In this document: in pieces, positions 2,791 through 64,000 of the stretch
How the letters are laid out: each line of letters starts with the position of its first letter
Position numbering within the stretch: position 1 is the first letter of the stretch
NCBI RefSeq assembly: GCF_964275005.1
Contig: NC_092701.1
Coordinates: 32,693,919-32,757,918, forward strand
DNA from: Diadema setosum
Lineage: Eukaryota > Echinodermata > Echinoidea > Diadematoida > Diadematidae
Direction: 5' to 3'
Length of the DNA stretch: 64,000 nucleotides
Position numbers and translations under genes: made by a program
The notes under the pieces: generated by a model
Database searches by the model: none
What the model was told of the DNA's origin: nothing
The model's input: the letters and a program-made list of their open reading frames with translations, nothing else

Positions 2791-2846
2791 AGTATTTCAT
2801 GCAGTACTGTAAAGTCAAAGTGTGATTCACTTCGCTGCTAACCACG

Positions 2847-5606
2847 ATGGCTGGAGGTACTGCTGTCACGGTTTTGACTGCCCTGATGACTTTGTCATGT
2901 ATTGCTGGTCACTGGATACAAACTCATCCCAAATGCTTCTTCTCTTACCCCAGTCCCTTACCGAATGCAGACTGCTCTCATCTCAACCTCTCCGCTGTCC
3001 CCCAGACTCTTCCAAGCAACCTCTACCAGCTGGACTTATCATACAACGACATTGTTACCATCACAGATGTTTCGTTTGTCAGATATCGCAAGATCCAAAT
3101 CTTGCTCTTGCCGCGGAATACCCTGAATCGGATCGACGGGAAATCGTTTGAGTTGCTCCGAGACTTGAGAGTGCTTTATATGAGTTACAACAACATCAGC
3201 CGACTTCCAGACGCTCTGTTTCATAAGAATGTCCGTCTCTCGCTCCTTGATCTGTCGCACAACAGACTGACCGAGATCCCAAACAACGCTCTTGGGTCTA
3301 TCAGAGCAATGCGGAACATCTCTTTCAGCGATAACCTTATCAAAACCATCAATTTTGCTAAGTTTTCTTCCTGTCAAAAATTATCAGACATCAATCTATC
3401 CAATAACAAGATCACGCATCTCCACCAAGAGAGTTTTGCTGCCCTCGGAAACTGTTCTTTTGACTACCTCAGTCTATCCTTCAACAAAGTCTCCGAACTT
3501 CCCCATGAAGTCTTTTTCCATTTACGTCACCTGAAATATCTCGATTTGAACAACAATAATCTCTGTACATTCGACGTTATGGCCTTCATGGGAAATTATA
3601 AAATCACTCACATATTCATCGAGAGAGCAAATATCCATACCATTACCCCCCTGACACACAGTGGCAAACGGGTTGACATTCCTCTCTTGAGACATATCAA
3701 TCTGAGGCAAAACGAACTCTCTCGGATACAGAGCAACGCATTCAGGGGGTTTAGAAACCTGCGTTATTTGAACCTTCGGGGAAACAAGTTAACCTCAATC
3801 ACTAACGCCTCATTCTGTGGATTGGATTCCCTCACCACCTTAAATTTGGCTTGGAACGGACTTTCACATTTGCCTCTTTTTGCGTTCGCTTGCACCAAGA
3901 ATCTAAAAACTCTCTGGCTGTCCAGCAATAAGATTACAGTGTTAAATCCGCTTGTGTTATATGGAGTTCCCTCTCTACAATATCTGGATCTTTACTTTAA
4001 TAATCTAGAGAATCTGGCAGGACCGTGGAATCTACATTCCTTACAGCTACTGCACCTGCAAAGAAACAGACTAGCTTCTTTGAATGAAACTGCGTTTGAA
4101 GGAATGCCCAATTTGCAGAAAGTTAATTTGACCGAAAATATAATCGCAAACATAGCTCAAGATACATTTCTCAGACTCAATTTTCTGGAATCTATTGATT
4201 TGTCTCGACAACCGTCACTAATTACACTAGATGGTATTTTTGCAAAATCGAAACAACTCAAGTACATAAATCTGAAGGAATCTCGGATTCAGTTTTCGTC
4301 ACTAAAAAATCAATTTACATATGCAAGCTCAATGAATATACTACTCATGTCAAAGGCAAAGTTAACTACCAATAACCTGGCAAGTAAGAGTCAAAATTTG
4401 TCTGTTTTCTCCGGGTTAGAGTCACTAAGAGTCCTCGATCTATGGGGAAATTACTTACCTGACTTGTACAAGTTTCCTTGGGTTTTTCAGCCGTTACGTA
4501 AACTGGAAGTAATTAACCTAAGTGGTAATGAAATCACTGTTTTGAAAGCAAGGATGTTCTATCACTTATCATCCCTAAAAAAACTAGATTTATATGCAAA
4601 CAAAATTCACACAATCCACCCACATACTTTCCATGGACTGGGAATCTTACAGGAATTGACTCTGAAAAATAATATAATATCTCTGTTTGACAGAAATCTA
4701 CTCAAAGACACGCCGAAACTCTTAACATTGTACCTTCGCGCAAATCATCTCACTACGATTTCTGCAGACACATTTATGCCAGAGACACTCGTGCGCCTTG
4801 ATATCTCCCGCAATCCTTTAACTTGCGACTGCAGCTTGGCGTGGTTCCGAAACTGGTTCCAAACGACCAACGTTAATATTTCCCCCGATAATGAAACCCT
4901 GTGCTCGCAAACTTCCTTCAAACAGCTTGTGAACGTGCCTCTTCAAGAATTCCATCCAGACGACTTTTGTGGAATCGACGTACAACTTATCCTTGGACTC
5001 ATCCTTGGCAGTATCATGGTTACCTGCATGGGACTTTTGATTTACCGGAAACGCTGGTGGCTGAACTATAAGATCTTCTTGCTAAAACTTTTTGTCCTAG
5101 GTTATAAGCAACAAGAAGAAGACAGACAGGCAGATGACTATGAGTATCAGCTTAACATCATGTGTCATGATGACGATGATGACTGGGTTCATAGTGTCCT
5201 GAGACCTGCATTTGAAGAGAGAATGCCCCATCTCCAACGGGTTGCCTATGGCGACGAGGCTCTCAGGGTGTCAATGTACTACATCGATGCTATCTACCAC
5301 ATCGTCGAGAACAGCTACAAGACTGTCTTGTTGCTTAGCAACCACTGTACTGATGATGCCTGGTTCATCACCAAGGTCAGAGTGGCTCTAGAGCATGTGA
5401 ATGAAACAGGACTTGACAAAGTCATCCTGGTATTTTTGGAGGACATACCCAGTGAGCGGCTGCCATACTTGGTAAGGCTCTTTTTGAGCAGAGACAGGCC
5501 TAACCTGCTCTGGACTGAGGACTGTGACGGTCAGGACTTGTTCTGGGCCCATTTTGAGAAGTGTATGAGGTCAAATCTACAGATCAATCATGCTCTTCCG
5601 ATTTGA
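2847..5606 (+). CDS. Toll-like receptor, single exon
   Basis: A 919 aa type I membrane receptor. Residues 1 to about 22 form a signal peptide. A cysteine-bearing N-cap (C30, C43) leads into about 24 leucine-rich repeats (roughly 55-652) with LxxLxLxxN cores and several N-glycosylation sites. An LRR C-cap with NPLTCDCSLAWF starts near 656. A single membrane helix lies near 711-733, followed by basic residues. The cytoplasmic TIR domain spans about 763-908. Box 3 is present (F899-W900). Box 1 is unusual (QLNIMCHDDDDDW), and the usual RDxxPG of box 2 is replaced by YGDEALRVSM, with no proline in the BB loop. Such receptors sense microbial ligands and signal through TIR adaptors. The start is the first ATG in frame with a signal peptide. 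One uninterrupted exon fits echinoderm TLR genes. The family call is secure; ligand and signalling partner are unknown. Confidence 0.95.
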   Translation: MAGGTAVTVLTALMTLSCIAGHWIQTHPKCFFSYPSPLPNADCSHLNLSAVPQTLPSNLYQLDLSYNDIVTITDVSFVRYRKIQILLLPRNTLNRIDGKSFELLRDLRVLYMSYNNISRLPDALFHKNVRLSLLDLSHNRLTEIPNNALGSIRAMRNISFSDNLIKTINFAKFSSCQKLSDINLSNNKITHLHQESFAALGNCSFDYLSLSFNKVSELPHEVFFHLRHLKYLDLNNNNLCTFDVMAFMGNYKITHIFIERANIHTITPLTHSGKRVDIPLLRHINLRQNELSRIQSNAFRGFRNLRYLNLRGNKLTSITNASFCGLDSLTTLNLAWNGLSHLPLFAFACTKNLKTLWLSSNKITVLNPLVLYGVPSLQYLDLYFNNLENLAGPWNLHSLQLLHLQRNRLASLNETAFEGMPNLQKVNLTENIIANIAQDTFLRLNFLESIDLSRQPSLITLDGIFAKSKQLKYINLKESRIQFSSLKNQFTYASSMNILLMSKAKLTTNNLASKSQNLSVFSGLESLRVLDLWGNYLPDLYKFPWVFQPLRKLEVINLSGNEITVLKARMFYHLSSLKKLDLYANKIHTIHPHTFHGLGILQELTLKNNIISLFDRNLLKDTPKLLTLYLRANHLTTISADTFMPETLVRLDISRNPLTCDCSLAWFRNWFQTTNVNISPDNETLCSQTSFKQLVNVPLQEFHPDDFCGIDVQLILGLILGSIMVTCMGLLIYRKRWWLNYKIFLLKLFVLGYKQQEEDRQADDYEYQLNIMCHDDDDDWVHSVLRPAFEERMPHLQRVAYGDEALRVSMYYIDAIYHIVENSYKTVLLLSNHCTDDAWFITKVRVALEHVNETGLDKVILVFLEDIPSERLPYLVRLFLSRDRPNLLWTEDCDGQDLFWAHFEKCMRSNLQINHALPI

Positions 5607-15696: not shown

Positions 15697-16286
15697 TTAA
15701 AGGACAAGTTCACCTTCATAAACATAAGGATTGAGAGAATGCAACGATATCAGTAGAACACATCAGTGAAAGTTTGAGGAAAATTGGACAATCGATGCAA
15801 AAGTTATGAATGCAAAAAATTATGAAAATTTTTGTGTTGGAACCGTTGGATGAGGAGACTACTACAGCTTGTGAGTCATATGCGTACAACAGTATAAAGA
15901 AAATGTAAAAGAAAATTCAACATATTTTCACTTTTTTCGCATAATAAAAGAGCACTTGACTTGCCTCTTTCTAAAGGCAGGGGGAATAATATTACCCATA
16001 ACATTTGTCGGTAACGAGTCAGGGGAATGTGTACTTTTTTCAAAAGATGGAATTTTGTGAAATTCTCTTTATATTTTCCTTATAGTTATTGTTGTACGCA
16101 TGTGACATCTAAGTTATTCATACACTGCAGTAGTCTTCTCATCCTGCGGTTACTGCACAAAAACTTCAAAAATTCATAACTATTGAACGGATTGTCTGAT
16201 TTTCCTCAAACTTTCAATGATGTGTTCTACTAATATTGCTACATTCTCTCAATCCTTATGTTTATGAAGGTAAACTTGTCCTTTAA
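15697..16286. mobile_element. TTAAAGGACAAG-family palindromic element, complete
   Basis: Both ends are intact. TTTAAAGGACAAGTTCACC at the left is mirrored by GGTAAACTTGTCCTTTAA at the right, with arms of about 200 bp and TTAA at both edges. The interior holds GCATAATAAAAGAGCACTTG. There is no frame, so it is non-autonomous. TTAA target duplication is known for piggyBac and Kolobok DNA transposons; the family here is inferred only from the ends. Confidence 0.8.
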
Positions 16287-27286: not shown

Positions 27287-27638
27287 AGGGCGTTGAGTTG
27301 GCTCAGTCGGTAGCGCGTCTGCCTCACGATCCTAAGGGCCCGGGTTCGAACCCGAGTCTTGACTGAGCAATGTTGTGTGTAATCATACCGTCCCCTCTTC
27401 GCATAGCAAGAGGCAAAACACTCTGTCCCTCGGATAGGACATAAAATGGAGGTCCCGTGTATGCGTAACAACTCATGCACGTAAAAGATCCCGCTTCATT
27501 CATTCACCGCAAAGAGCAGGGTGTTTAACCTGGTGAAGTGGTCCCACCTCACATCCAACTGAACCCCATGGAAGACCAGCTGAATATGGGCTATCGAGCC
27601 ATCTTCTCAGATGGAAATGAACAAACAAGCAAAACAAG
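27287..27638 (+). mobile_element. tRNA-derived SINE, full length
   Basis: The head is tRNA-like with an A box (TTGGCTCAGTCGG) and B box (GGTTCGAACCC), followed by about 230 bp of body including AAGAGCAGGGTGTTTAACC, GAAGTGGTCCCACCTCACAT and CATGGAAGACCAGCTGAAT, and a short AAACAAACAAGC-type tail. A second copy lies reversed at 31954-32319. The two boxes are an internal RNA polymerase III promoter; mobility would depend on a LINE partner. Target duplications are not obvious. Confidence 0.85.
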
Positions 27639-27700
27639 TATTTTCTAGGATGAAGAGCATAACTCCTCCATAAAGAGGTGACTTGTCTCGCAACACTTAC

Positions 27701-28071
27701 ATCGACGTAGATAAGCACTGACTTGATCAGTGTTTTAGTAGTAGCCATGAAAAAAAATATATATATATATTTTTTAAATCATGGGTTTACATGCTCGGGG
27801 CAGGATTCGAACCCACGACCTCCTGATCTCAACTCGACGGAAGAATTCAATGAAATTGATCAATGTACGCGGTACCCGCAGCAACTATATACAAGGATTA
27901 GAACCTGCACAGGCTGTCGGACGAAGCTCGGTGGTCTAGTGAACAAGACGCCTGTCCAGAGATCAGGAGGTCGTAGGTTCGAATCCTGCCCGAGTATGTA
28001 AGCCCATGATTTCTTTTGCCATGGCTTCTATTAAAACACTGATCAATTCAGTGCGTATATACGTCGACGTA
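27701..28071. mobile_element. inverted-repeat element with tRNA-like arms
   Basis: CGACGTAGATAAGCACTGA near 27703, then GATCAGTGTTTTAGTAG, is mirrored by CACTGATCAATTCAGTGCG and ACGTCGACGTAGG near 28066. Within the right arm, 27927-27996 resembles a tRNA: GTGGTCTAGTGAAC as A box, GGTTCGAATCC as B box and short T- and anticodon-like stems. The left arm carries the complement of the B-box half (GGATTCGAACCCACGACC). A weaker copy lies at about 50365-50640. This is not a working tRNA gene: the acceptor stem pairs poorly. Confidence 0.65.
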
Positions 28072-30531: not shown

Positions 30532-30940
30532 TTAAAGGGATAGCGCAGTTTCGGTTGAAATGGCACTTCACCTTTCCAACTGTTTTACCAGGTAATGAGT
30601 AACCATTTATAAAGCATGAAAGAGCAAAAAATTCAAATATGAATTCAAAGTTTATTTGATGAAAATTGGTTTTGAAATTAATTAGATATCCAAAAACAAA
30701 GTGGTCCCAATAAAAATTGGATGCAGATTTTATTAGGACCACTTTGTTTTACTTTGTTTTTGGATATCTCAGCCATTTCAAAACCGATTTTCATCAAATC
30801 AACTTTTAATTCAGACACGTGTTATGTAGAATATTGTACGCTTTCGTGTAGGCCTACTTCATAAGAAGTTTTTCATTATCTCACAAGAAAAGTTGTAAAC
30901 CTGAATCCAAATCTCAACCAAATATATACCATCCCTTTAA
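30532..30940. mobile_element. TTAAAGGGAT-family palindromic element
   Basis: CTTAAAGGGATAGCGCAGTT at the left and ATATACCATCCCTTTAA at the right. The middle mirrors around ACAAAGTGGTCC and GGACCACTTTGT, with ATGAAAATTGGTTTTGAAAT against ATTTCAAAACCGATTTTCAT. Related copies lie at 41871-42234, 42229-42624 and 43084-43463. Non-coding and probably a TTAA-targeting DNA element. Confidence 0.75.
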
Positions 30941-31953: not shown

Positions 31954-32319
31954 CGTTTGTTTGTTTGTTTATTTGTTCGTTTCCATCTGAGTAGATGGCT
32001 GCATAGCCCATATTCAGCTACGTTAAACTGGTCTTCCATGGGGTCCAGTTGGATGTGAGGTGGGACCACTTCACCGGGTTAAACACCCTGCTCTTTATGA
32101 TGAATGAATGAAGTGGGATCTTTTACGTGTATGAGTTGTGACTCTCTCATACACGGGACCTCCATTTTTTGTCCTATCCGAGGGACAGAGTGTTTTGCCT
32201 CTTGCTAGCGGGGATGGTATGATTAGACACAACATTGCTCAGTCCAGACTTGGGTTCGAACACGGGCCCTTAGGATCGCGAGGCAGACGCGCTACCGACT
32301 GAGCCAACTCACCGCCCTT
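31954..32319 (-). mobile_element. tRNA-derived SINE, minus-strand copy
   Basis: Reverse-orientation copy of the SINE at 27287-27638. Read on minus it has GAGTTGGCTCAGTCGGTAGC and GGGTTCGAACCC-like boxes, then the shared body (ATAGGACAAAAAATGGAGG; AAGTGGTCCCACCTCAC; CATGGAAGACCAG) and a long (AAAC)n tail, seen on + as TTTG repeats at 31954-31980. Compared with the other copy it has small indels, for example in the segment after CTCATACAC. Confidence 0.85.
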
Positions 32320-34544: not shown

Positions 34545-35768
34545 TGTCCCCGCCGGAAGTAGCATTTAGTAGCAAAATGTACAATATAGGTAAAAAGATC
34601 AAGGACAAAGGTCAAAGAAGTCAAAGGTCAAAATTCTATGTAGAAGTTTTGAAACCCTCACCTAGTGCCATCGCATAAAGCAAACGGAATCGAAATCGCG
34701 TTAGAAATAGCGAAGGAGTAGCATTTTGTAGGCAATGTAGCTGTAACATTTATCCAATTACACATACTGTCGTACATGCTTTGAATTGATTGTAAGCGCT
34801 TTGGGCCTTGCGGGAAAAGCGCACTATAAATAATAGTAATAATAATAATAATGTACAATGTAGGTCAAAAATCAAGGTCAAAGGTCAAAGAAGTCAAAGG
34901 TCAAAATTCTGTGTAGAAGTTTTGAAGCCCTCACCTAGTGCCATCACATAAAGCAAATGGAATCGAAATTGGGTTAGAAATGGCGAAGGAGTAGCATTTG
35001 ATAGCAAAATGTACAATACAGGTCAAAAATCAAGGTCAGAGGTAAAAAATCAAGGTCAGAGGTCAAAGAAGTCAAAGGTCAAAATTCTGTGTAGAAGTTT
35101 TGAAGAGCTCATCTAGTGCCATCACTTAAAGCAAACGGAATTGAAATCGGGTTACAAATGGCGAAGGAGTAGCATTTTCTAGCAAAATGTACAATATAGG
35201 TCAAAAATCAAGGTCAAAGGTCAAAGAAGTCAAAGGTCAAAATTCTGTGTAGAAGTTTTGAAGCCCTAACCTAGTGCCATCACATAAAGCAAACGGAATC
35301 GAAATCGGGTTAGAAATGGCGAAGGAGTAGCATTTTGTAGGCAATGTACAATATAGGTCAAAAATCAAGGTCAAAGGTCAAAATTCTGTGTAGAAGTTTT
35401 GAAGCCCTCACCTAGTGTCATCATATAAAGCAAACGGAATCAAAATCTGGTTAGAAATGGCGAAGGAGTAGCATTTAACAAGCAAAATGTACAATATAGA
35501 GCAAAGGTCAAGGTCAAAGGTCACAACTGAAATTCTGTGTAGAAGTTTCAAAGCTCCCATGTAGTGCTATCATATAAAGCAAACAGAATCAAAATCGGGT
35601 TAGAAATTGCGAAGTAGTAGCATTTTGAACATTTTGATCACACACGGACGCACAGACGGACGGACGGACGGACAGACGGACGGACGCACAGACGGACGGA
35701 CACACAGACACACACACGTACGGAGCCCGTTTCATAGTCCCCTGCTCGAACTCGTTCGGCGGGGACAA
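34545..35768. mobile_element. transposon-like unit with internal tandem repeat array
   Basis: The ends are inverted: TGTCCCCGCCGGAAG near 34544 and TTCGGCGGGGACA near 35768. Inside are six copies of a roughly 140-180 bp repeat starting at ATGTACAAT(A/G)TAGG (about 34577, 34853, 35009, 35188, 35346, 35487). Each contains TCAAGGTCAAAGGTCAAAG-type sequence, AATTCTGTGTAGAAGTTTTG, CTAGTGCCATCA and AAATGGCGAAGGAGTAGC. After the last copy comes an ACGG/ACGC simple repeat (about 35640-35715). No frame. It resembles non-autonomous elements that carry satellite arrays. Confidence 0.75.
34722..34851 (+). mobile_element. short retroelement 3' tail inserted in the array
   Basis: The array copy that should read GTAGGCAATGTACAATATAGG (as at 35338) is interrupted. 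Between the two halves lies GTAAGCGCTTTGGGCC, then AAAGCGCACTATAAATAAT and a short AAT repeat tail. That ending is a common 3' tail of LINE and SINE elements. About 125 bp is inserted, with AATGTA on both sides as a probable target duplication. Confidence 0.65.
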
Positions 35769-37714: not shown

Positions 37715-38276
37715 TTTAAAGGACAGGTCTCCCTTCATATACATGTTGATCGAGTGAATGCAGTAATATTAGTAAAGCACATCAGTGAAAGTTTGGGCAA
37801 AATCGGACAATCCGTTCAGCTGGATGAGAAGACTATAATGTACAGTGTATGATGTCACATGCGTACAACGATATAAGGAAAATATAAAGAGAATTTCACA
37901 AAATTTTGTTCTTTGAAAAAAAGTGCACATTTCCTCGCCTTGTTACTAATGTATGTTAATGGTAATAATATAATTCCCCATGTCTTCTGAAAGAGGCAAG
38001 TCAAGTGTTTTTTTTTTTTATTACGCGAGAAAATTGAAATTATGTTGATTTTTGAAAACACTTTCTTTATAATATTATGGTTCTACAGATATGACATCAC
38101 AAGCTGTAGTAGTCTTCTCATCCAGCAGTGACTGAGTAGAAACTTCAAAAATTCATAATTTTCAAGCGGCTTGTCCGATTTTCCTAAAACTCTTACTCAT
38201 TGTTTTCTACTAATATTGTATACTAATAATGTATTCACTCAATCCACATGTCTATGACGGTGAACTTGTCCTTTAA
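37715..38276. mobile_element. TTAAAGGACAAG-family palindromic element, complete
   Basis: TTTAAAGGACAGGTCTCCC at the left and GGTGAACTTGTCCTTTAA at the right. It shares ACATCAGTGAAAGTTTG, AATCGGACAATCCGTTCA, TAGTCTTCTCATCCAGCAG and the arm structure with 15697-16286. Non-coding. Confidence 0.8.
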
Positions 38277-40451: not shown

Positions 40452-41870
40452 TGACAAACTTGATCTCCAGTCCCATACAGAGAACATTTTAATAGACTTT
40501 GACAATGTGTACGTGCAGCATCGCATGAAATATATTTTCTATCCTTCGTCTTTTAGGGAGAATTCTCTTAGGGTGTAAAGCGCATGAAAGGAACACCAGT
40601 TGTGAGCTTCGAAATTTAAAAAGTAGAAACAATAGATAAAGGAGATGAATGAAAATTTGACAAATTTGACCCGACGAGTGGATTAAGGTCAGTAGATCAT
40701 TCAACATGACATTGGATGTATAAAGAAAAAGATTCGAGATTTCTTCTTCTTCTTCCTCTTCCTCTTCCTCTTCTTCTATTATTATTTCCTTCTGCCTGCT
40801 TTTTATCATAATTCTATTCCCTTTACAGCGCACAAAGATGTCGTACGGACTGGTGATGTTCCTCATTCCGAAGGTTCGTTAATCAGAAAATAAGATAAAT
40901 TATGTATGTAAAGCACAAGCATGCACTGAATAGTCGGTTTTTTTTTTTTCTCTCTCTCTCTCTCTCTCAGTTTAAGGTGTGTACGAAGCGCTTTCACAAC
41001 GGGTTGAAAATATACAGCATTTCAGTAACTTATATATCGTGTTTGGATAACTTATGCAAACGAATGCTAAACATGTTGCCGGCGTTCATCTCTTATGACT
41101 AATGACAGTCTAACTTATTGAAAGCGCGCGACAAAGTATCGTCAACTATTACGTGTCATGCATAAGTCTATGAAAAGACTGCCGTTATTAAAATAAAAGT
41201 GATTAAAACCGTAACCGCACTGGACATTGCAGTACCAATTCACATTGCTCACCTTCCCATTCATACTGGCTGAAATGCGACAATTTTACAAAATATTGGT
41301 ATGTCAATGTACACACAGGCATACAATACTATACAACGGTGCAACGGAAATATGAGCATATATGTATAGTATGAACTGTGTGATTTTATATTTTGTTTTG
41401 TCTTTGCGGATGAATGAATACTATATAGGTGCACATGGGTTGATATCTGCACATGCACTAATGTATCAGCAAGAACAAACAGAAACAATGATTGAAAATG
41501 TTATATTTTCCTATTTTTGTCTTTGAAGTCGATGCATCTTTTGTTGACAGCTCAATCTTCCCAATATATATACAATCAACCGACAATCAAACCATTATTA
41601 TGTTCATCCTGGCCAAGGTTGCCGTGTTGACATTTTGTGACTAATTGGCTAAAGAATGTCTTGGATTCACACACTCACAAACAATGAGCAATAAACATCC
41701 TGGTGTGAATGGAGATCTTTGTCACCCCTGTGTTATCATTTTTATCTAGACATATTTGAATGAGATCTGATTTGCGCTGATATCTGATTCCATCGAAGCA
41801 AAGTCGAAATGAGTTATATCTAGGCTGAGTTCTTTCACAAAGGATGGCGGAAATAGAACTTAACGCAGAC
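40452..41870. other. intergenic, simple repeats
   Basis: CTT-type repeat at about 40741-40776; a T-run then CT repeat at about 40938-40969; an ATTCCGAAGGTTCGTTAATC fragment at about 40866-40886 matching the 12.1 kb repeat. No gene. Confidence 0.5.
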
Positions 41871-42234
41871 TTTAAAGGGATCGTATAGTTTTGGGTGAGA
41901 CCTGATTTCAGGTTTCTAATATTTTTTGGTGAGATAATGAGAACCTCATGAAATATGAAAGAGCATGTAATTCCATGAGGAATAGTTGAAATGGCCGAGA
42001 TATCCAAAACAGAGCGATTCTAATAAAGTGTGGGACCCACCTTTTATTCCGATTGCTTTGTTTTACTTTGTTTTTGGATGTTTCAGTCACTCCAGACCCG
42101 ATTTTCATCAAATTAACTTTGAATTCATCTTAAAATGGTATGCTCTGTAATATGTCATAAGTGGTTTCTTTATATCTCGCAAAAAGTTGAAAGCCCAGTT
42201 CTAATCTCCACCAATACTGTACTATCCCTTTAAA
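41871..42234. mobile_element. TTTAAAGGGAT-family palindromic element C1
   Basis: Starts TTTAAAGGGATCGTATAG and ends TGTACTATCCCTTTAA. The interior has ATATGAAAGAGCATGTAATTCC and the mirrored TTTTTGGATGTTTCAG and GATTTTCATCAAA segments. It abuts the next element with no spacer. Confidence 0.75.
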
Positions 42235-42624
42235 GGGATGGTGCAGTTTTGGTGGAGATGGGGCTTGAATTTGTTTTGAGATGATTTTTTTTTTTTTAGC
42301 TAATGAAAAACCTCTTATAACATATGAAAAAGCATATAATACTACAAGGAATTTAAAGTTTATTTGATGAAAATCGGTTTTGAATGGCTGAGAGATCTAA
42401 AATAAGGTGGTCCTAATAAAACGTTGGATCCACCTTCTATTAGGTTTATTGTTCTACTTGTTTTTTGATATGTCAGCCATTTCAAAACCGATTTTCATCA
42501 AATAAACTTTAAATTCCTGTTAGAATTGTATTCTTTTTAATATTTTGTACGACGGTTTCTAAGTATCTCACAAAAAATTAAAAGCTGAATTCTCACCTCG
42601 GCCAATACTATACCATCCCTTTAA
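42229..42624. mobile_element. TTTAAAGGGAT-family palindromic element C2
   Basis: Begins in the same TTTAAAGGGATGG that ends C1 and finishes CTATACCATCCCTTTAA near 42624. GAAAATCGGTTTTGAATGGC on the left is mirrored by GCCATTTCAAAACCGATTTTC on the right. Closer to the 30.5 kb copy than to C1. Confidence 0.75.
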
Positions 42625-42674
42625 ACTCAAATTCGGTGGAATTAATCTGGAAAGTGAGATGACCACCTCCTTGA

Positions 42675-43019
42675 TTAAAGGGGATGGCTAGTAACTGATC
42701 AGTGGGAATCAGTGGGAATGCTGGGGGATGATTGTTGGGATTCATTTAAGAGTACATTATAACTGTGTGAAAATTATTTGCTTCAGAACGGTCTCATATT
42801 CAAGTAATGTGCAGTTTAATGCCCCGTCACTGTACAGGCATGCTAACCTGGAAACATTAAACTGCATATATCTTGAATATGAGACCATTCTGAAGCAAAT
42901 AATTTTCACACAACAATAGATATGTAATGTACTCTTATATGAATCCACAAGGATTGAAACAATCATCCCCCAGCATTCCCACTGATTCCCACTGATCAGG
43001 TACTAGCCATCCCCTTTAA
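42675..43019. mobile_element. palindromic element, GGGATGG/ACTGATCAGTGGG family, second copy
   Basis: TTAAAGGGGATGGCTAGTAAC at the left (42675) and GTACTAGCCATCCCCTTTAA at the right (43019). The arms mirror through CTGATCAGTGGGAATCAGTG and GAAAATTATTTGCTTCAGA. Matches 24506-24867 closely but keeps both TTAA-bearing ends. Confidence 0.8.
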
Positions 43020-43083
43020 GTGAATTTCGTCTGTCTGTGTAGAATCGGCAAAAGAATAGAGTACGTCACTCTTGCGCAAGTAT

Positions 43084-43463
43084 CTAAAGGAATCGTATAG
43101 TTTTCGTTGAGACCTAACTTCAGGTTTCTAACATTCTTTGGTGAGTTAACGAGAAACCTCTTATGAAATATGAAAGAGCATGTGATTCCAAAAGGAATTC
43201 ACCGTTTATTTGATGAAAATTGGTTCGGAAATTGCTGAGATATCCAAAACAGAGTGATCCTAACAAAAGGTGGGACCCAACTTTTATTACGATCTCTTTG
43301 TTTCATTTTGTTTTTAGATGTCTCAGCCATCCCAATACCGATTTTCATCAAATAAACTCTGAATTCCATTAGAATGATATGCTCTTTAGCCTCTTTACTA
43401 TTATATGAGTGATTTCTTGATATCTAGCAAAAAGTTAAAAACCCAATCCTCATCTCCACCAAC
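43084..43463. mobile_element. TTTAAAGGGAT-family palindromic element C3, right end lost
   Basis: CTAAAGGAATCGTATAGTTTT at the left matches C1 closely (GAGACCTAACTTCAGGTTTC; AATATGAAAGAGCATGTGATT). The right arm stops at CTCATCTCCACCAA without the terminal CCCTTTAA. Fourth element in a 1.6 kb cluster. Confidence 0.7.
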
Positions 43464-45592: not shown

Positions 45593-46752
45593 GTGACGTC
45601 ATAATTTCGGTCCCCGAAATTTCGCCGTCAGATCGGGCTCTGGTGGTCAGAAAAGGGTCTCAAAACATCATCTATAATCCATCGTTCTAGAGACGTTTTG
45701 ACCTTCTGAAACTTAATTATTCATATTCCTAGAGACTTAAGCTTTCCAGAAATGTATATGATTCACCTTACTTATGAATATTGAGCTATTCATCTCGTTC
45801 ATTGTACTTTAAGGATAGAAACAAGATTAGAAAAAAGGGAGCAATCTCATAGCAAATCAAAATTACTTATATTTCACTCAGCAGAATAATTTACCTTTTG
45901 TAAATTCCTTGTGAAAAATGAACACATTTTGCAATTGATTTTCTTGGAGTATTTTGGGACAAGATTCAATTTTTTTTAATGTTTTTGTTTTATATCTGGG
46001 GGATTTTTGTAAACAGGCGGAGGATTTCTGTACCATGTTTTGGTGTTTTGTGCTTGTTAAATCTTTTGCTAACCCTTCAATTCTCCCGTCTTTTTGAAAA
46101 ACAACTAAATTGTTTTCTTTTGGACCAAGGTTATCTTGTTTTATAAACTTTGTCACGGACCAATATAATGCATAACAAAAAGAAACTTTACCAAAACGAA
46201 GCAGTAAATAAGAGATAAGCATCTTGATATGAACATCTGAAGGAGGAGAAAATAATCCCTTTGCAATATAAGTTCCATCTAAACATGCTATTTGTAAGTT
46301 TATCTCAAGACGTCAGCAAATCTTACATTGTTTTCTCTTATAAAATATATTTTGGTAATGTATTTATGATGTGCATCTTTCTTATTCCTTGCTCAGAAGA
46401 TTTTTTTGTTAAGGAGTAAGACAATGAACTTTGATATCTTAGAGTTTGAAGTCAGTGACTGCTTTTTATTGATTCTTTGATATCCCTAAAAAGTTTGCAA
46501 ACAAACATCTATTTCTTTTGGACCGAGGTTGTCGTGTTGATGTTTTGTGCCTACCTATGGCTATATTTTATTTTGGACCTATCTTTTTGCACAAAGAAAA
46601 CGAGCAAAACAACAATAAGGAAGTATTAAAAAAAGTAAGCTCAAGGGGAGTGTTTTATCCCACAGCAAGACGAAGTTTGTCATTGCTTGTCAAGGTCTTA
46701 GAAATAGAGGTCCTTAACAAGGATAGATTCAATTCAATTTTGTTGTTCATAT
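45593..46752. repeat. tandem duplication, unit 1 (1160 bp)
   Basis: The unit from GTGACGTCATAATTTCGG to TTTTGTTGTTCATAT is repeated immediately at 46753. The encoded 114-codon minus frame (45878-46222 and 47038-47382) is the same in both, and I find no difference between the two copies where I compared lines. The frames inside have no recognisable domain and are not called as genes. The duplication is very recent or an assembly artefact. Confidence 0.9.
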
Positions 46753-47912
46753 GTGACGTCATAATTTCGGTCCCCGAAATTTCGCCGTCAGATCGGGCTC
46801 TGGTGGTCAGAAAAGGGTCTCAAAACATCATCTATAATCCATCGTTCTAGAGACGTTTTGACCTTCTGAAACTTAATTATTCATATTCCTAGAGACTTAA
46901 GCTTTCCAGAAATGTATATGATTCACCTTACTTATGAATATTGAGCTATTCATCTCGTTCATTGTACTTTAAGGATAGAAACAAGATTAGAAAAAAGGGA
47001 GCAATCTCATAGCAAATCAAAATTACTTATATTTCACTCAGCAGAATAATTTACCTTTTGTAAATTCCTTGTGAAAAATGAACACATTTTGCAATTGATT
47101 TTCTTGGAGTATTTTGGGACAAGATTCAATTTTTTTTAATGTTTTTGTTTTATATCTGGGGGATTTTTGTAAACAGGCGGAGGATTTCTGTACCATGTTT
47201 TGGTGTTTTGTGCTTGTTAAATCTTTTGCTAACCCTTCAATTCTCCCGTCTTTTTGAAAAACAACTAAATTGTTTTCTTTTGGACCAAGGTTATCTTGTT
47301 TTATAAACTTTGTCACGGACCAATATAATGCATAACAAAAAGAAACTTTACCAAAACGAAGCAGTAAATAAGAGATAAGCATCTTGATATGAACATCTGA
47401 AGGAGGAGAAAATAATCCCTTTGCAATATAAGTTCCATCTAAACATGCTATTTGTAAGTTTATCTCAAGACGTCAGCAAATCTTACATTGTTTTCTCTTA
47501 TAAAATATATTTTGGTAATGTATTTATGATGTGCATCTTTCTTATTCCTTGCTCAGAAGATTTTTTTGTTAAGGAGTAAGACAATGAACTTTGATATCTT
47601 AGAGTTTGAAGTCAGTGACTGCTTTTTATTGATTCTTTGATATCCCTAAAAAGTTTGCAAACAAACATCTATTTCTTTTGGACCGAGGTTGTCGTGTTGA
47701 TGTTTTGTGCCTACCTATGGCTATATTTTATTTTGGACCTATCTTTTTGCACAAAGAAAACGAGCAAAACAACAATAAGGAAGTATTAAAAAAAGTAAGC
47801 TCAAGGGGAGTGTTTTATCCCACAGCAAGACGAAGTTTGTCATTGCTTGTCAAGGTCTTAGAAATAGAGGTCCTTAACAAGGATAGATTCAATTCAATTT
47901 TGTTGTTCATAT
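46753..47912. repeat. tandem duplication, unit 2 (1160 bp)
   Basis: Second copy, offset exactly 1160 bp. The trinucleotide GTG occurs at the start of unit 1 (45593), at the junction (46753) and just after unit 2 (47913), so the breakpoints show 3 bp of microhomology. After 47915 the sequence departs (GTGGAGGTAGAGG). Confidence 0.9.
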
Positions 47913-48834
47913 GTGGAGGTAGAGGACGACTGTTTTTCTTTTATATATATAGTTTTGCATACTTTCATATATAGAGGGAATTGGAAGAGCTTAAAGGTCT
48001 TGTTTACCTTTGGGAGCAGTGATCTAAAAAATGTTCAAGATATCACTTTTGATGCATAGACGTGTATGTCAGTTGGATCACAAAGCAACCTACCATATGA
48101 AATTTTCGCAATTAAGCCTAAAATGTATGGAGATATTACTATTTTTCTCAATAAATCATAATTGTAGACATTTTAGTCTCGATTATTTTTAATTATAACT
48201 ATTGTATATATTTTGTGTATTAAACTGATTAAAATGTATACATTGGTTGTTTCTATCCCTAACTCACATTCTAAAACTATTTCGAAACACTGTAGCTGGG
48301 TTTTTGTTTCATCTGCAAATGGTAAATTATGCCTTTAATGACAGCCGCGCGATTAGGATTCTTGCGAACAGAAGGTCTTCGCGACGGTCATGGGAGAAGC
48401 CACATTGTAGACCTACATTGTTCCGTACCGTCACAGCCTTGTGCGTGCAATGCAAGGAACTCAAGGATTAATTCATCTCCTATAGACTGCCGGCGAGCCA
48501 TGTAACTGTCTCACGAGAATCATGAGGTAACGGTTTAAAATGGCTGAACCTGACCATTCTCGTTGCATGGCATGCCTCCCTTCTTACCCTATTATGGAAT
48601 TTCTTCTATGAAATGAAATCATACCAGAAAAACAAGGTGGTGAAATAATATTGCTTATACAAATATCATGATGAGGTATATATACTCATGATTCGTTTGT
48701 CCACGCCCGAGTTCAGTTTGCAGCATAAGACTCTAACTAGTCGTGTGGACCATTAAGAAGGACACAGTTATAAATCGGTCAGGACAAAACAAAAGCAAAA
48801 CTAAACAAAACAAAAATTGGCCGATGACGTCCCT
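47913..48834. other. intergenic, nothing recognised
   Basis: AT-rich, with a short GC-richer patch at about 48340-48440. No exon or repeat match. Confidence 0.5.
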
Positions 48835-51460: not shown

Positions 51461-53069
51461 GGACCGGATGTCTCCTATCGTGTTTGTCATTTCGATCTGA
51501 CTTCGACCGGGCAAAGCAGCCGGATGAAATGGTAATTAACACTCCATGTAATTGGAATTAACCACAATACAAATTGTAAAACAGGAAACAAAACAAAACA
51601 GGATGTCAACTAGCTGGAATGTCAGAAGTGATATTGAAAGCTGATAGCCGTATAAAGTTTGGATATATCTTCCACAGTGTTACGGTATATCCTGTAAGGC
51701 AATTTGACCTCTGCACGACAATCGCGTTTTGGGGCGATATAATAGCAGACACAGGTGCCGTCTACCTTTCAAGCCACATTACTACAATCCTGTAACTATG
51801 TAATAGCATAGTGCGAATCATTAATATGATTTATCATTTTTCATGCACTTCACGAATGGAATACTCAGATACTAATTTCTGCGCGTATGAGTGAGAAATT
51901 TGGAGATGATCATGTCACGACCTCCAGCTTCCAGTTTGCGTAAATATGTGGCTCTGACCAATAGCAATACTTTTTGAAAACACGTGACATCTTGAAATAA
52001 AGTCAGAATTTTAAAAGTGCTTGAGTGAAACTTTTAACTTTCTATTTCTTTGATCAGACTTGATTTGATTTGATTTGATTTATCCACAAAATACATATAC
52101 CTATACATTAAACACAAATATATAAATTGTTTGTACATGGAAATATGTCATATACATTTTGTGTGGAACGTCGTATTATAAGCTATGATTTAAAGCTTGA
52201 CGGGAACGTTCAATAGATATAACTTACACAAATATGGATATAGAAGAGGGTATAATGCGCGTTCAGTATGTTTCATGGCTAGAAATACGGTACTCTAAAA
52301 AAAAAATCGAGGGAAGATATTCACTCTTAAAGGAGTGAATTAAAAAAGAGTGAATTTAGAGTGAAATTGGAGTGAGTTTTGAGTGAAAATATTCATTTTC
52401 ACACATTTTAGAGTGACCTCAGGGATCACTTCAAAATCTTCGAGTGATCCTTGAGGTCACTCCAAAATGAGTGAAAATGAACATTTTCACTTTAAATTCA
52501 CTCCTTTAAGAGTGAATATTTTCACTCGATTTTTTTTTAAGAGTAGAAGGAGAGAGAACGGAAGAGAAATCGGGAGAATTGGAAGAAGGGTACTCCACAT
52601 CATGATAGTCTAATAAGGTATGCAAATTTGATTTGGCATTTCCTTATAATTCCTGTCACCTTCTACAGAGGATGAATGTAACCCAAGGGCATTGCTAGAT
52701 AGAGATCACAGAACAGAATAAATGAGAGGTTACACACGTGTTCGTCATATCATAAAACTATGTGTTAATTTTCAATCAAACTATCAGGATTTTTATATAA
52801 TCCACTCTTCCTCCCTATTCTCTCTGATCCAGAATTGCATGAGGTTGTAATGTCTCCTAGGACCACTTTCTAAGGCAGCAAAAAATAAAATATGTGATCG
52901 TTGATTTCTTGCAAAAAAAAAAAAAAAAATGAATGGAGAAAGTGACACGAAGAACTGTCATAGGCGTACTCCTCATGATAGGTACATCCTGCAGGAAATA
53001 GACAAAAACATATGATGCCTGTCAGAAATAATAAGTTATCTGAAATAATCATGCTGTTTCAGTGTGGCC
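51461..53069. repeat. duplicated segment, copy 1
   Basis: Matches 62659-63993 from GGACCGGAT to CAGTGTGGCC in the same order and orientation, with substitutions and small indels. Shared landmarks: TCGACCGGGCAAAGCAGCC-like block, GGTAATTAACACTCCATG, GGATGTCAACTAGCTGGAAT, a TTGATT repeat with TTTGTACATG, ACATCATGATAGTCTAATAA, GGACCACTTTCTAAGGCAGC. The TTGATTT repeat followed by AT-rich sequence resembles a minus-strand retroelement tail. It holds the inserted element 52293-52543. No gene. Confidence 0.85.
52293..52543. mobile_element. 251 bp foldback element with TA target duplication
   Basis: The left 48 bp (CTCTAAAAAAAAAATCGAG, then ATATTCACTCTTAAAGGAGT) is mirrored at the right (ACTCCTTTAAGAGTGAATAT, then CTCGATTTTTTTTTAAGAG). 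The interior is copies of GAGTGAAAT or TTTCACTC and GTGACCTCA. TA occurs on both sides (52291-52292, 52544-52545). The homologous segment at 63419-63427 reads AATACGATAGAAGG with a single TA and no insert, which fixes the borders. Non-coding. Confidence 0.9.
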
Positions 53070-62658: not shown

Positions 62659-64000
62659 GGACCGGATATCTTGACAAGTCGTGTTTGTCATTTCGATCTG
62701 ACTTCGACCGGGCAAAGCAGCCGGATGAAATGGTAATTAACACTCCATGTTGGAATTAACCACAATACAAATTGTAAAACAGGAAACAAAACAAAACAAA
62801 AGAGGATGTCAACTAGCTGGAATGTCAGAAGTGATATTGAAAGCTGTACAGTAAATCCTGTAAGCTAATTTGACCTCCGTACGACAATCGCGTTTTTGAC
62901 CGATTATTGCAGCAGCTATAGCGCCGTCTATCTTTCAAGCCGTTTAATGAATTCCTGCAACTATGCAGTAAGTTGGTGCGAATATGATTTATATGATTTA
63001 TCATATTTAGTGCACTTCAAGAACGGAATACAAGCAAAAATTTCTGCTCTTTTTTTTTGTGTTTCTGCTCACAATATTTTGTGAAAACACGTGACATCTT
63101 GAAATAAAGATATTACTGTCTCCATCAAGTCAAACTTTAAACAGTGTTTAAGTGAAACTTGTGACGTTCTAAATTTCTGATTCTTTGATTTGATTTGATT
63201 TGATTTATTCACTACATACATATGCCAACATTATACACAAATATATAGATTTATTGTTTGTACATGAAATAAGTCATCTACTGTACATTTTGCGTGGAAT
63301 GTCACAAGCTATTTAAACTTTTACTGTAACATTCAGTAGATATAACTTACAAAAATATGTATAGAAACATTATACCAAAAAAAAGTCATAATGCATTTAG
63401 GTTTTATTGCGCAGAAATACGATAGAAGGAGAGGGAAAAGACGAGAAATCGAGAGGATAGGAAGAAGGGTACTTCACATCATGATAGTCTAATAAGGTAT
63501 GTACATTTGATTTGGCATATCTTTATAACTTCTTCTGTCGCCTTCTACAGAGTTTATAGGATATAAATAAAATGAAATAATGACAGCAATAATAAAAGCA
63601 TCCTGCTTGAAGGGCATTGCTTGATAGAGATCACAGAACAGATGAGAGGTTACACACGTGTTCGTCATCTCGTAACAGGTTATGTGTTAACTCTCAATTA
63701 AACTATCAGAGGATTTTTATGATTATGAACCATTCTTCCTCCCTGTTATGTCTGATCCATGCAGAATTGCATGATTTTTGTAATGTCTCCTCGGACCACT
63801 TTCTAAGGCAGCAAAAAAAAAAATGTGATCGTTGATTTCTTGCCAAAATGAACGGAGAAAGTGACAAGAAAAACTGCCATAAACATATAGTTCTCATGAT
63901 AGGTACATACTGCAAAAATGGACAAAAACACACGATGCCTATCGGAAATGATAAGTTATCTGAAATATCATATTATGCTGTTTCAGTGTGGCCTTTGGAA
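62659..64000. repeat. duplicated segment, copy 2
   Basis: Diverged copy of 51461-53069; matching is clear to 63993, close to the window edge. It lacks the 251 bp foldback insertion and keeps the simple TA at that site. Small differences include ATGTTGGAATTAACC against ATGTAATTGGAATTAACC. No gene. Confidence 0.85.

Follow-up and report, generated by a model that had tools for sequence, protein, structure and literature searches.

The window analysed here, a stretch of 64 kb, contains an uninterrupted frame of 926 codons on the forward strand (2826-5606, +) with leucine-rich repeats (LRR) and a TIR domain; compared with solved structures it comes closest to Toll-like receptor 3 and, judged by its sequence, it is a Toll-like receptor frame. 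By its gene content the window is probably animal DNA. An inverted pair of about 350 bp with 88% identity (27287-27633 / 31964-32318) includes what we take to be a stretch resembling the start of a tRNA, and is possibly a tRNA-derived SINE. A separate tRNA-Ser(AGA) was called at 27924-27998, where two inverted arms enclose it (27698-27760 / 28009-28071). At 34862-35627 a tandem array, for which units of about 158, 178 or 299 bp were reported, carries AGGTCA words in direct repeat, which we take to resemble nuclear-receptor half sites. The two copies of a 1163-bp tandem repeat (45593-46755 / 46753-47915) show zero differences; either the duplication is very recent or the assembly is at fault. 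The window also holds many other palindromes. TTAA stands exactly at both ends in four of the seven whose flanks were examined (15697-16286, 30532-30940, 37716-38276 and 42675-43019), and these four start with TTAAAGG; the one at 42675-43019 is nested in a larger inverted repeat (42327-43387), while a fifth palindrome (41868-42628) has TTAA four bases inside both ends.

The locus under study comprises a pair of paralogous segments, one carrying a palindromic element and the other an empty site, with the following features (position in the window, strand, description and type of evidence):

51461..53069, + strand: paralogous segment, copy bearing the element (BLAST; alignment)
52291..52292, no strand: left TA of the duplicated target (sequence read; flank comparison)
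52293..52543, no strand: putative palindromic non-autonomous element, core of 251 bp (absent in the paralogous copy; inverted repeats; fold)
52291..52430, + strand: left arm, 140 nt including TA, with seven exact modules (alignment to the right arm read in reverse complement)
52347..52387, + strand: tandem array in the left arm, 11-bp unit AGAGTGAATTT repeated 3.7 times (repeat analysis)
52431..52442, no strand: 12-nt stretch between the arms (inverted-repeat and fold analysis)
52443..52545, - strand: right arm, 103 nt including TA, with five exact modules and a sixth across its inner border (arm alignment; module count)
52544..52545, no strand: right TA of the duplicated target (sequence read; flank comparison)
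62659..63993, + strand: paralogous segment, copy lacking the element and reaching, on the right, close to the end of the window (BLAST; alignment)
63423..63424, no strand: empty site, a single TA, in the paralogous copy (sequence read; flank comparison)

A preliminary description of this DNA had placed the element at 52291..52545, and TA, 251 bp and TA are indeed read at 52291-52545, giving a net insertion of 253 bp relative to the paralogous copy (251 bp and the second TA). When the element is removed and its flanks are joined directly, the paralogs are identical at 1032 of 1234 aligned columns (84%). This is the figure to use for their divergence, as a global alignment with the element included (18 gaps in one row, 16 in the other) split the insertion into several gaps. 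Because of the 84% identity and the many gaps in both, the segment copies are, on their sequence, old paralogs. The two copies had been described as differing by one 251 bp insertion; the insertion is there, but with this identity and many other gaps it is not their sole difference. In the first part of the pair (~51478-51645 / ~62679-62846) there is a nearly unchanged stretch, in which 112 of 112 aligned columns are identical, small gaps aside, a figure taken from two consecutive 60-column windows of the paralog alignment. Each of the 12 frames read in the pair contains a stop, so that the stretch is perhaps conserved non-coding DNA or a product of gene conversion.

The empty site reported earlier in the paralogous copy was recovered as one TA at 63423-63424, with flank homology on both sides. 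On the right side 52 of 60 bases, counted from TA, are identical between the filled and the empty copy. On the left side AGAAATACGG-TA faces AGAAATACGA-TA in the empty copy, and nine of the last ten bases before TA agree. The anchored score of this left flank (27.0) was reached at six of 4349 TA sites, all within 52267-52318 (the site and its neighbourhood), in a scan that covered about 100-63300, the empty site itself lying outside it; five of 5000 randomly drawn places, of unlisted position, reached the same score. A filled and an empty site within one window define the ends of an element without the use of a repeat library, the question of TA or GTA as duplicated target aside.

With respect to that question, duplication lengths of 0-10 bp ending at TA and of 2-7 bp starting at TA were compared. 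Among the lengths from 0 to 10 only 0, 1 and 2 bp left no mismatch among the left, right and empty site. At 2 bp all three read TA, and the element ends match at 11 of 12 bases, including the first four (4/4). At 3 bp the left and right flanks read GTA and the empty site ATA, with 9 of 12 bases and one of the first four matching, and at 4 bp the flanks differ from each other (GGTA / AGTA), with matches at 10 of 12 and two of the first four; the 12-base measure of symmetry is weakened by the A-rich ends of the element. The flanks alone leave TA and GTA undecided, because the G/A difference before TA is one substitution either way, and TA is favoured over GTA because the symmetry of the element ends is best at 2 bp. 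The preliminary description had let the empty site fix the exact ends, which the flanks by themselves do not do, GTA fitting them too, and the choice is made by end symmetry. Its TA target duplication stands as the best-fitting one on the sequences compared, a single insertion site showing a duplication but no target preference.

Several other duplications were rejected. Lengths of 4-10 bp were discarded since the flanks disagree, and a TTAA-duplicating element since they read GGTA and AGTA. According to the available text of PMC4482050, the duplications are AT within AATT for ISL2EU, TWA for PIF/Harbinger, TNA for NuwaII, CWG for NuwaI and ANT for Pangu. ISL2EU was rejected on the flanks GGTA and AGTA, PIF/Harbinger and NuwaII on the 3-bp candidates, which are GTA/GTA or TAC/TAG, and NuwaI and Pangu since neither fits the candidate duplications TA and GTA.

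The core opens with CTCTAAAAAAAAAATCGAG, and from its far end the complementary strand opens with CTCTTAAAAAAAAATCGAG. Most of the element falls into two inverted pairs: an outer one at 52291-52345 / 52491-52545 (55 nt, 93%) and an inner one at 52369-52430 / 52443-52504 (62 nt, 89%). The element folds near its full length, almost end to end. Folded as DNA it reaches -87.2 kcal/mol, where shuffled sequences average -23.65 (sd 3.16; z = -20), and folded as RNA -135.1, where they average -51.32 (sd 4.16); in neither case was any of 200 shuffles as good. No ORF of at least 110 aa overlaps it and, with its 251 bp and 55-nt ends of 93% identity, the element has the short length, the inverted ends and the lack of coding capacity of a MITE.

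The two arms are identical at 95 of 103 aligned bases (92%) outside an extra stretch of 37 bp, by which the left arm exceeds the right one. As aligned, this stretch (52345-52381) lies almost wholly inside the 11-bp array and contains three GAGTGA words. In total 13 exact GAGTGA/TCACTC words were counted in the core, seven in the left arm, five in the right arm and one lying across the latter's inner border. As controls, 251-base windows were taken at steps of 25 with the neighbourhood of the element excluded, together with 1000 first-order Markov-chain sequences; against the 13 words of the element, the maximum was two in 2528 other windows and three in the 1000 controls. We infer that the left arm may have lengthened as its GAGTGA modules were duplicated in tandem. 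The available text of PMC3573991 proposes that tandem repeats within the inverted ends of transposons, Galileo among them, hold secondary transposase binding sites, and by analogy the repeated GAGTGA modules may be extra binding places for a transposase. Such unequal modular arms suggest, in a concrete and checkable form, how an element that duplicates TA may come to have long inverted ends.

No second copy of the element was found within the 64-kb window: the best BLAST match (word 7) outside the element had E = 0.049 over 15 bases, and an nhmmer search of the window with the element masked returned 13 matches, the best with E = 1.2 and none convincing. With up to six mismatches, the 24-base end was found in the window only at the element's own two ends, five more places appearing at seven mismatches, while 12 additional places, a chance-like number, match its first ten bases (TACTCTTAAA) when one mismatch is allowed. 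The absence of a second copy from the window counts against the MITE reading. A transposase domain was found in none of the 30 ORFs scanned among the 35 of at least 110 aa in the window (E cut-offs of 0.001 or 0.1; five not scanned), the few sub-threshold matches at E 0.1 belonging to unrelated families. Three patterns from the element had no exact match in viral contigs, one had none in prokaryote genome contigs, and a phage comparison gave no match, but these collections are not meant for animal genomes, so that a null result is expected there and says little. Four stretches of the element had no occurrence in the text of published papers.

Taken together, the element is best explained as a putative palindromic MITE, non-coding and moved in trans, most likely by an IS630/Tc1/mariner transposase with duplication of TA, a reading to which we assign a probability of about 0.7. 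As a TA-flanked palindromic MITE it is an ordinary element of a known kind, and MITEs are common, with 5681 copies in 83 lineages given for one midge genome in the available text of PMC8504770. A transposase encoded elsewhere in the genome would act on the non-coding element in trans, cut it out at its ends and insert it at a TA, which would thereby become duplicated. The non-coding element, its symmetric ends, the duplicated TA and the clean empty paralog point to a trans-acting cut-and-paste transposase of this sort. For the IS630/Tc1/mariner group a common TA target and TA duplication are described in the available parts of PMC7325037 and PMC2170065, the latter reporting for ISY100 that 34 of 39 analysed products were inserted in TA with normal TA duplication. 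At our locus the duplication of TA on insertion was seen at one filled/empty pair, whose flanks GTA fits as well. A Tc1/mariner-type enzyme is the most likely mobiliser, with moderate confidence, given that a matching transposase was not encountered and that the element's termini are unlike those of Tc1 and Stowaway. Tc1 ends are CAGT and the Stowaway terminal sequence is CTCCCTCC; the ends here, CTCTAAAA and CTCTTAAA, do not show the latter.

These terminal bases also bear on the alternative that the MITE was moved by a superfamily other than Tc1/mariner, leaving a 2- or 3-bp duplication such as GTA, which we consider rather unlikely. The terminal CTCT matches the ends of neither Tc1 nor Stowaway, and a 3-bp duplication followed by a single substitution would account for GTA on both sides of the element and ATA at the empty site. 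Set against this, a 3-bp duplication costs end symmetry (one instead of four of the first four bases, nine instead of 11 of 12), and TA and GTA fit none of the families compared above, from ISL2EU to Pangu, as these are described in the available text of PMC4482050.

A second alternative dispenses with a transposon altogether and has a palindrome arise locally in one paralog, either through template switching or because GAGTGA units multiplied in tandem. The low-complexity arms, the tandem array and the single copy seen in the window are in line with such an origin, but it is made very unlikely by the symmetric ends, the duplicated TA and the clean empty site, and the empty paralog offers no GAGTGA-rich seed (at most two modules per window outside the neighbourhood of the element).

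The order of events can also be questioned, independently of the identity of the element. The preliminary description put the segment duplication first and the insertion after it, and by parsimony, the empty site being a single clean TA, the element was probably inserted by transposition after the duplication; this order is inferred from one pair. On the strength of that same dependence on one pair, the element could be older than the segment duplication and have been lost exactly from the other copy, which would be compatible with its identity as a MITE. When Tc1/mariner elements are excised by cut-and-paste, a few of their bases usually remain, and given such remnants the single TA of the empty site, with no extra bases, counts against exact loss. 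The identity of the arms (92%, 95/103) compared to that of the paralogs (84%) fits a younger insertion, weakly, since the arms were maybe never identical, and we regard exact loss as very improbable. Finally, descent from a classical foldback of the FB, TU, Tm1 or Galileo kind (superfamilies Mutator or P), with later decay of a long duplication, is scarcely credible, in spite of a tandem-repeat arm and unequal arms as described for Tm1 and Galileo in the available parts of PMC3169594 and PMC3573991, since the left and right flanks disagree at 3/7, 4/8 and 5/9 bases for 7, 8 and 9 bp (3 to 6 mismatches over 7-10 bp), yet over 7-9 bp the left flank differs from the empty site at a single base.

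Compared to the TTAA-flanked palindromic repeats of the same window, the putative MITE is likewise palindromic and hundreds of bases long, but the former have TTAAAGG ends and TTAA on both sides, and BLAST gave the element no match beyond its own limits better than E = 0.049. Tc1/mariner-group MITEs are small and non-coding and have inverted ends, like the element described here; TU, considered below among the foldbacks, has an 8-bp duplication and repeat arms. In TA-flanked IS630/Tc1/mariner MITEs, such as Stowaway in plants and mariner-linked MITEs in animals, TA is duplicated as in the present case, according to the available text of PMC7325037 and PMC2170065. The present element differs from them in its ends (CTCTAAAA / CTCTTAAA), which come without a matched autonomous element, and in consisting almost entirely of a GAGTGA-module palindrome with unequal arms. 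ISL2EU, of the PHIS superfamily, likewise has a 2-bp duplication, but of AT inside AATT instead of TA inside GGTA/AGTA (PMC4482050, in the text available).

In shape, the closest comparison is with foldback elements. Long inverted arms with internal repeats are described for Tetris, Tm1 and Galileo in the available parts of PMC4079207, PMC3169594 and PMC3573991, and in Tm1 and Galileo subfamily F the repeat number is unequal between the arms of one element (PMC3169594, PMC3573991), as it is here, with the 11-bp unit repeated 3.7 times in the left arm and arms of 140 and 103 nt. Tetris copies are without conserved ORFs in the portion of PMC4079207 at hand, which also cites TU as a sea urchin foldback, and our element is non-coding too. 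In contrast, the duplications given in these sources are 8-10 bp for Tetris, 9 bp for Tm1 and 7 bp for Galileo (PMC4079207, PMC3169594, PMC3573991), against 2 bp here. These elements are moreover assigned to Mutator or P, and some copies of Tm1 and Galileo carry a transposase, whereas none was seen here. The name foldback element, under which the locus was first described, is thus apt for its shape but not for the classical class, and because the duplication length differs we do not file it there. It is possible, if doubtful, that TA-duplicating machinery of the Tc1/mariner type has evolved a foldback architecture that is otherwise known from Mutator and P elements, with arms that are arrays of a short transposase-binding module (GAGTGA) and expand or contract independently on each side. 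If module numbers varied among further copies while the ends and the TA flanks stayed constant, the element would represent a further, convergent origin of the foldback structure.
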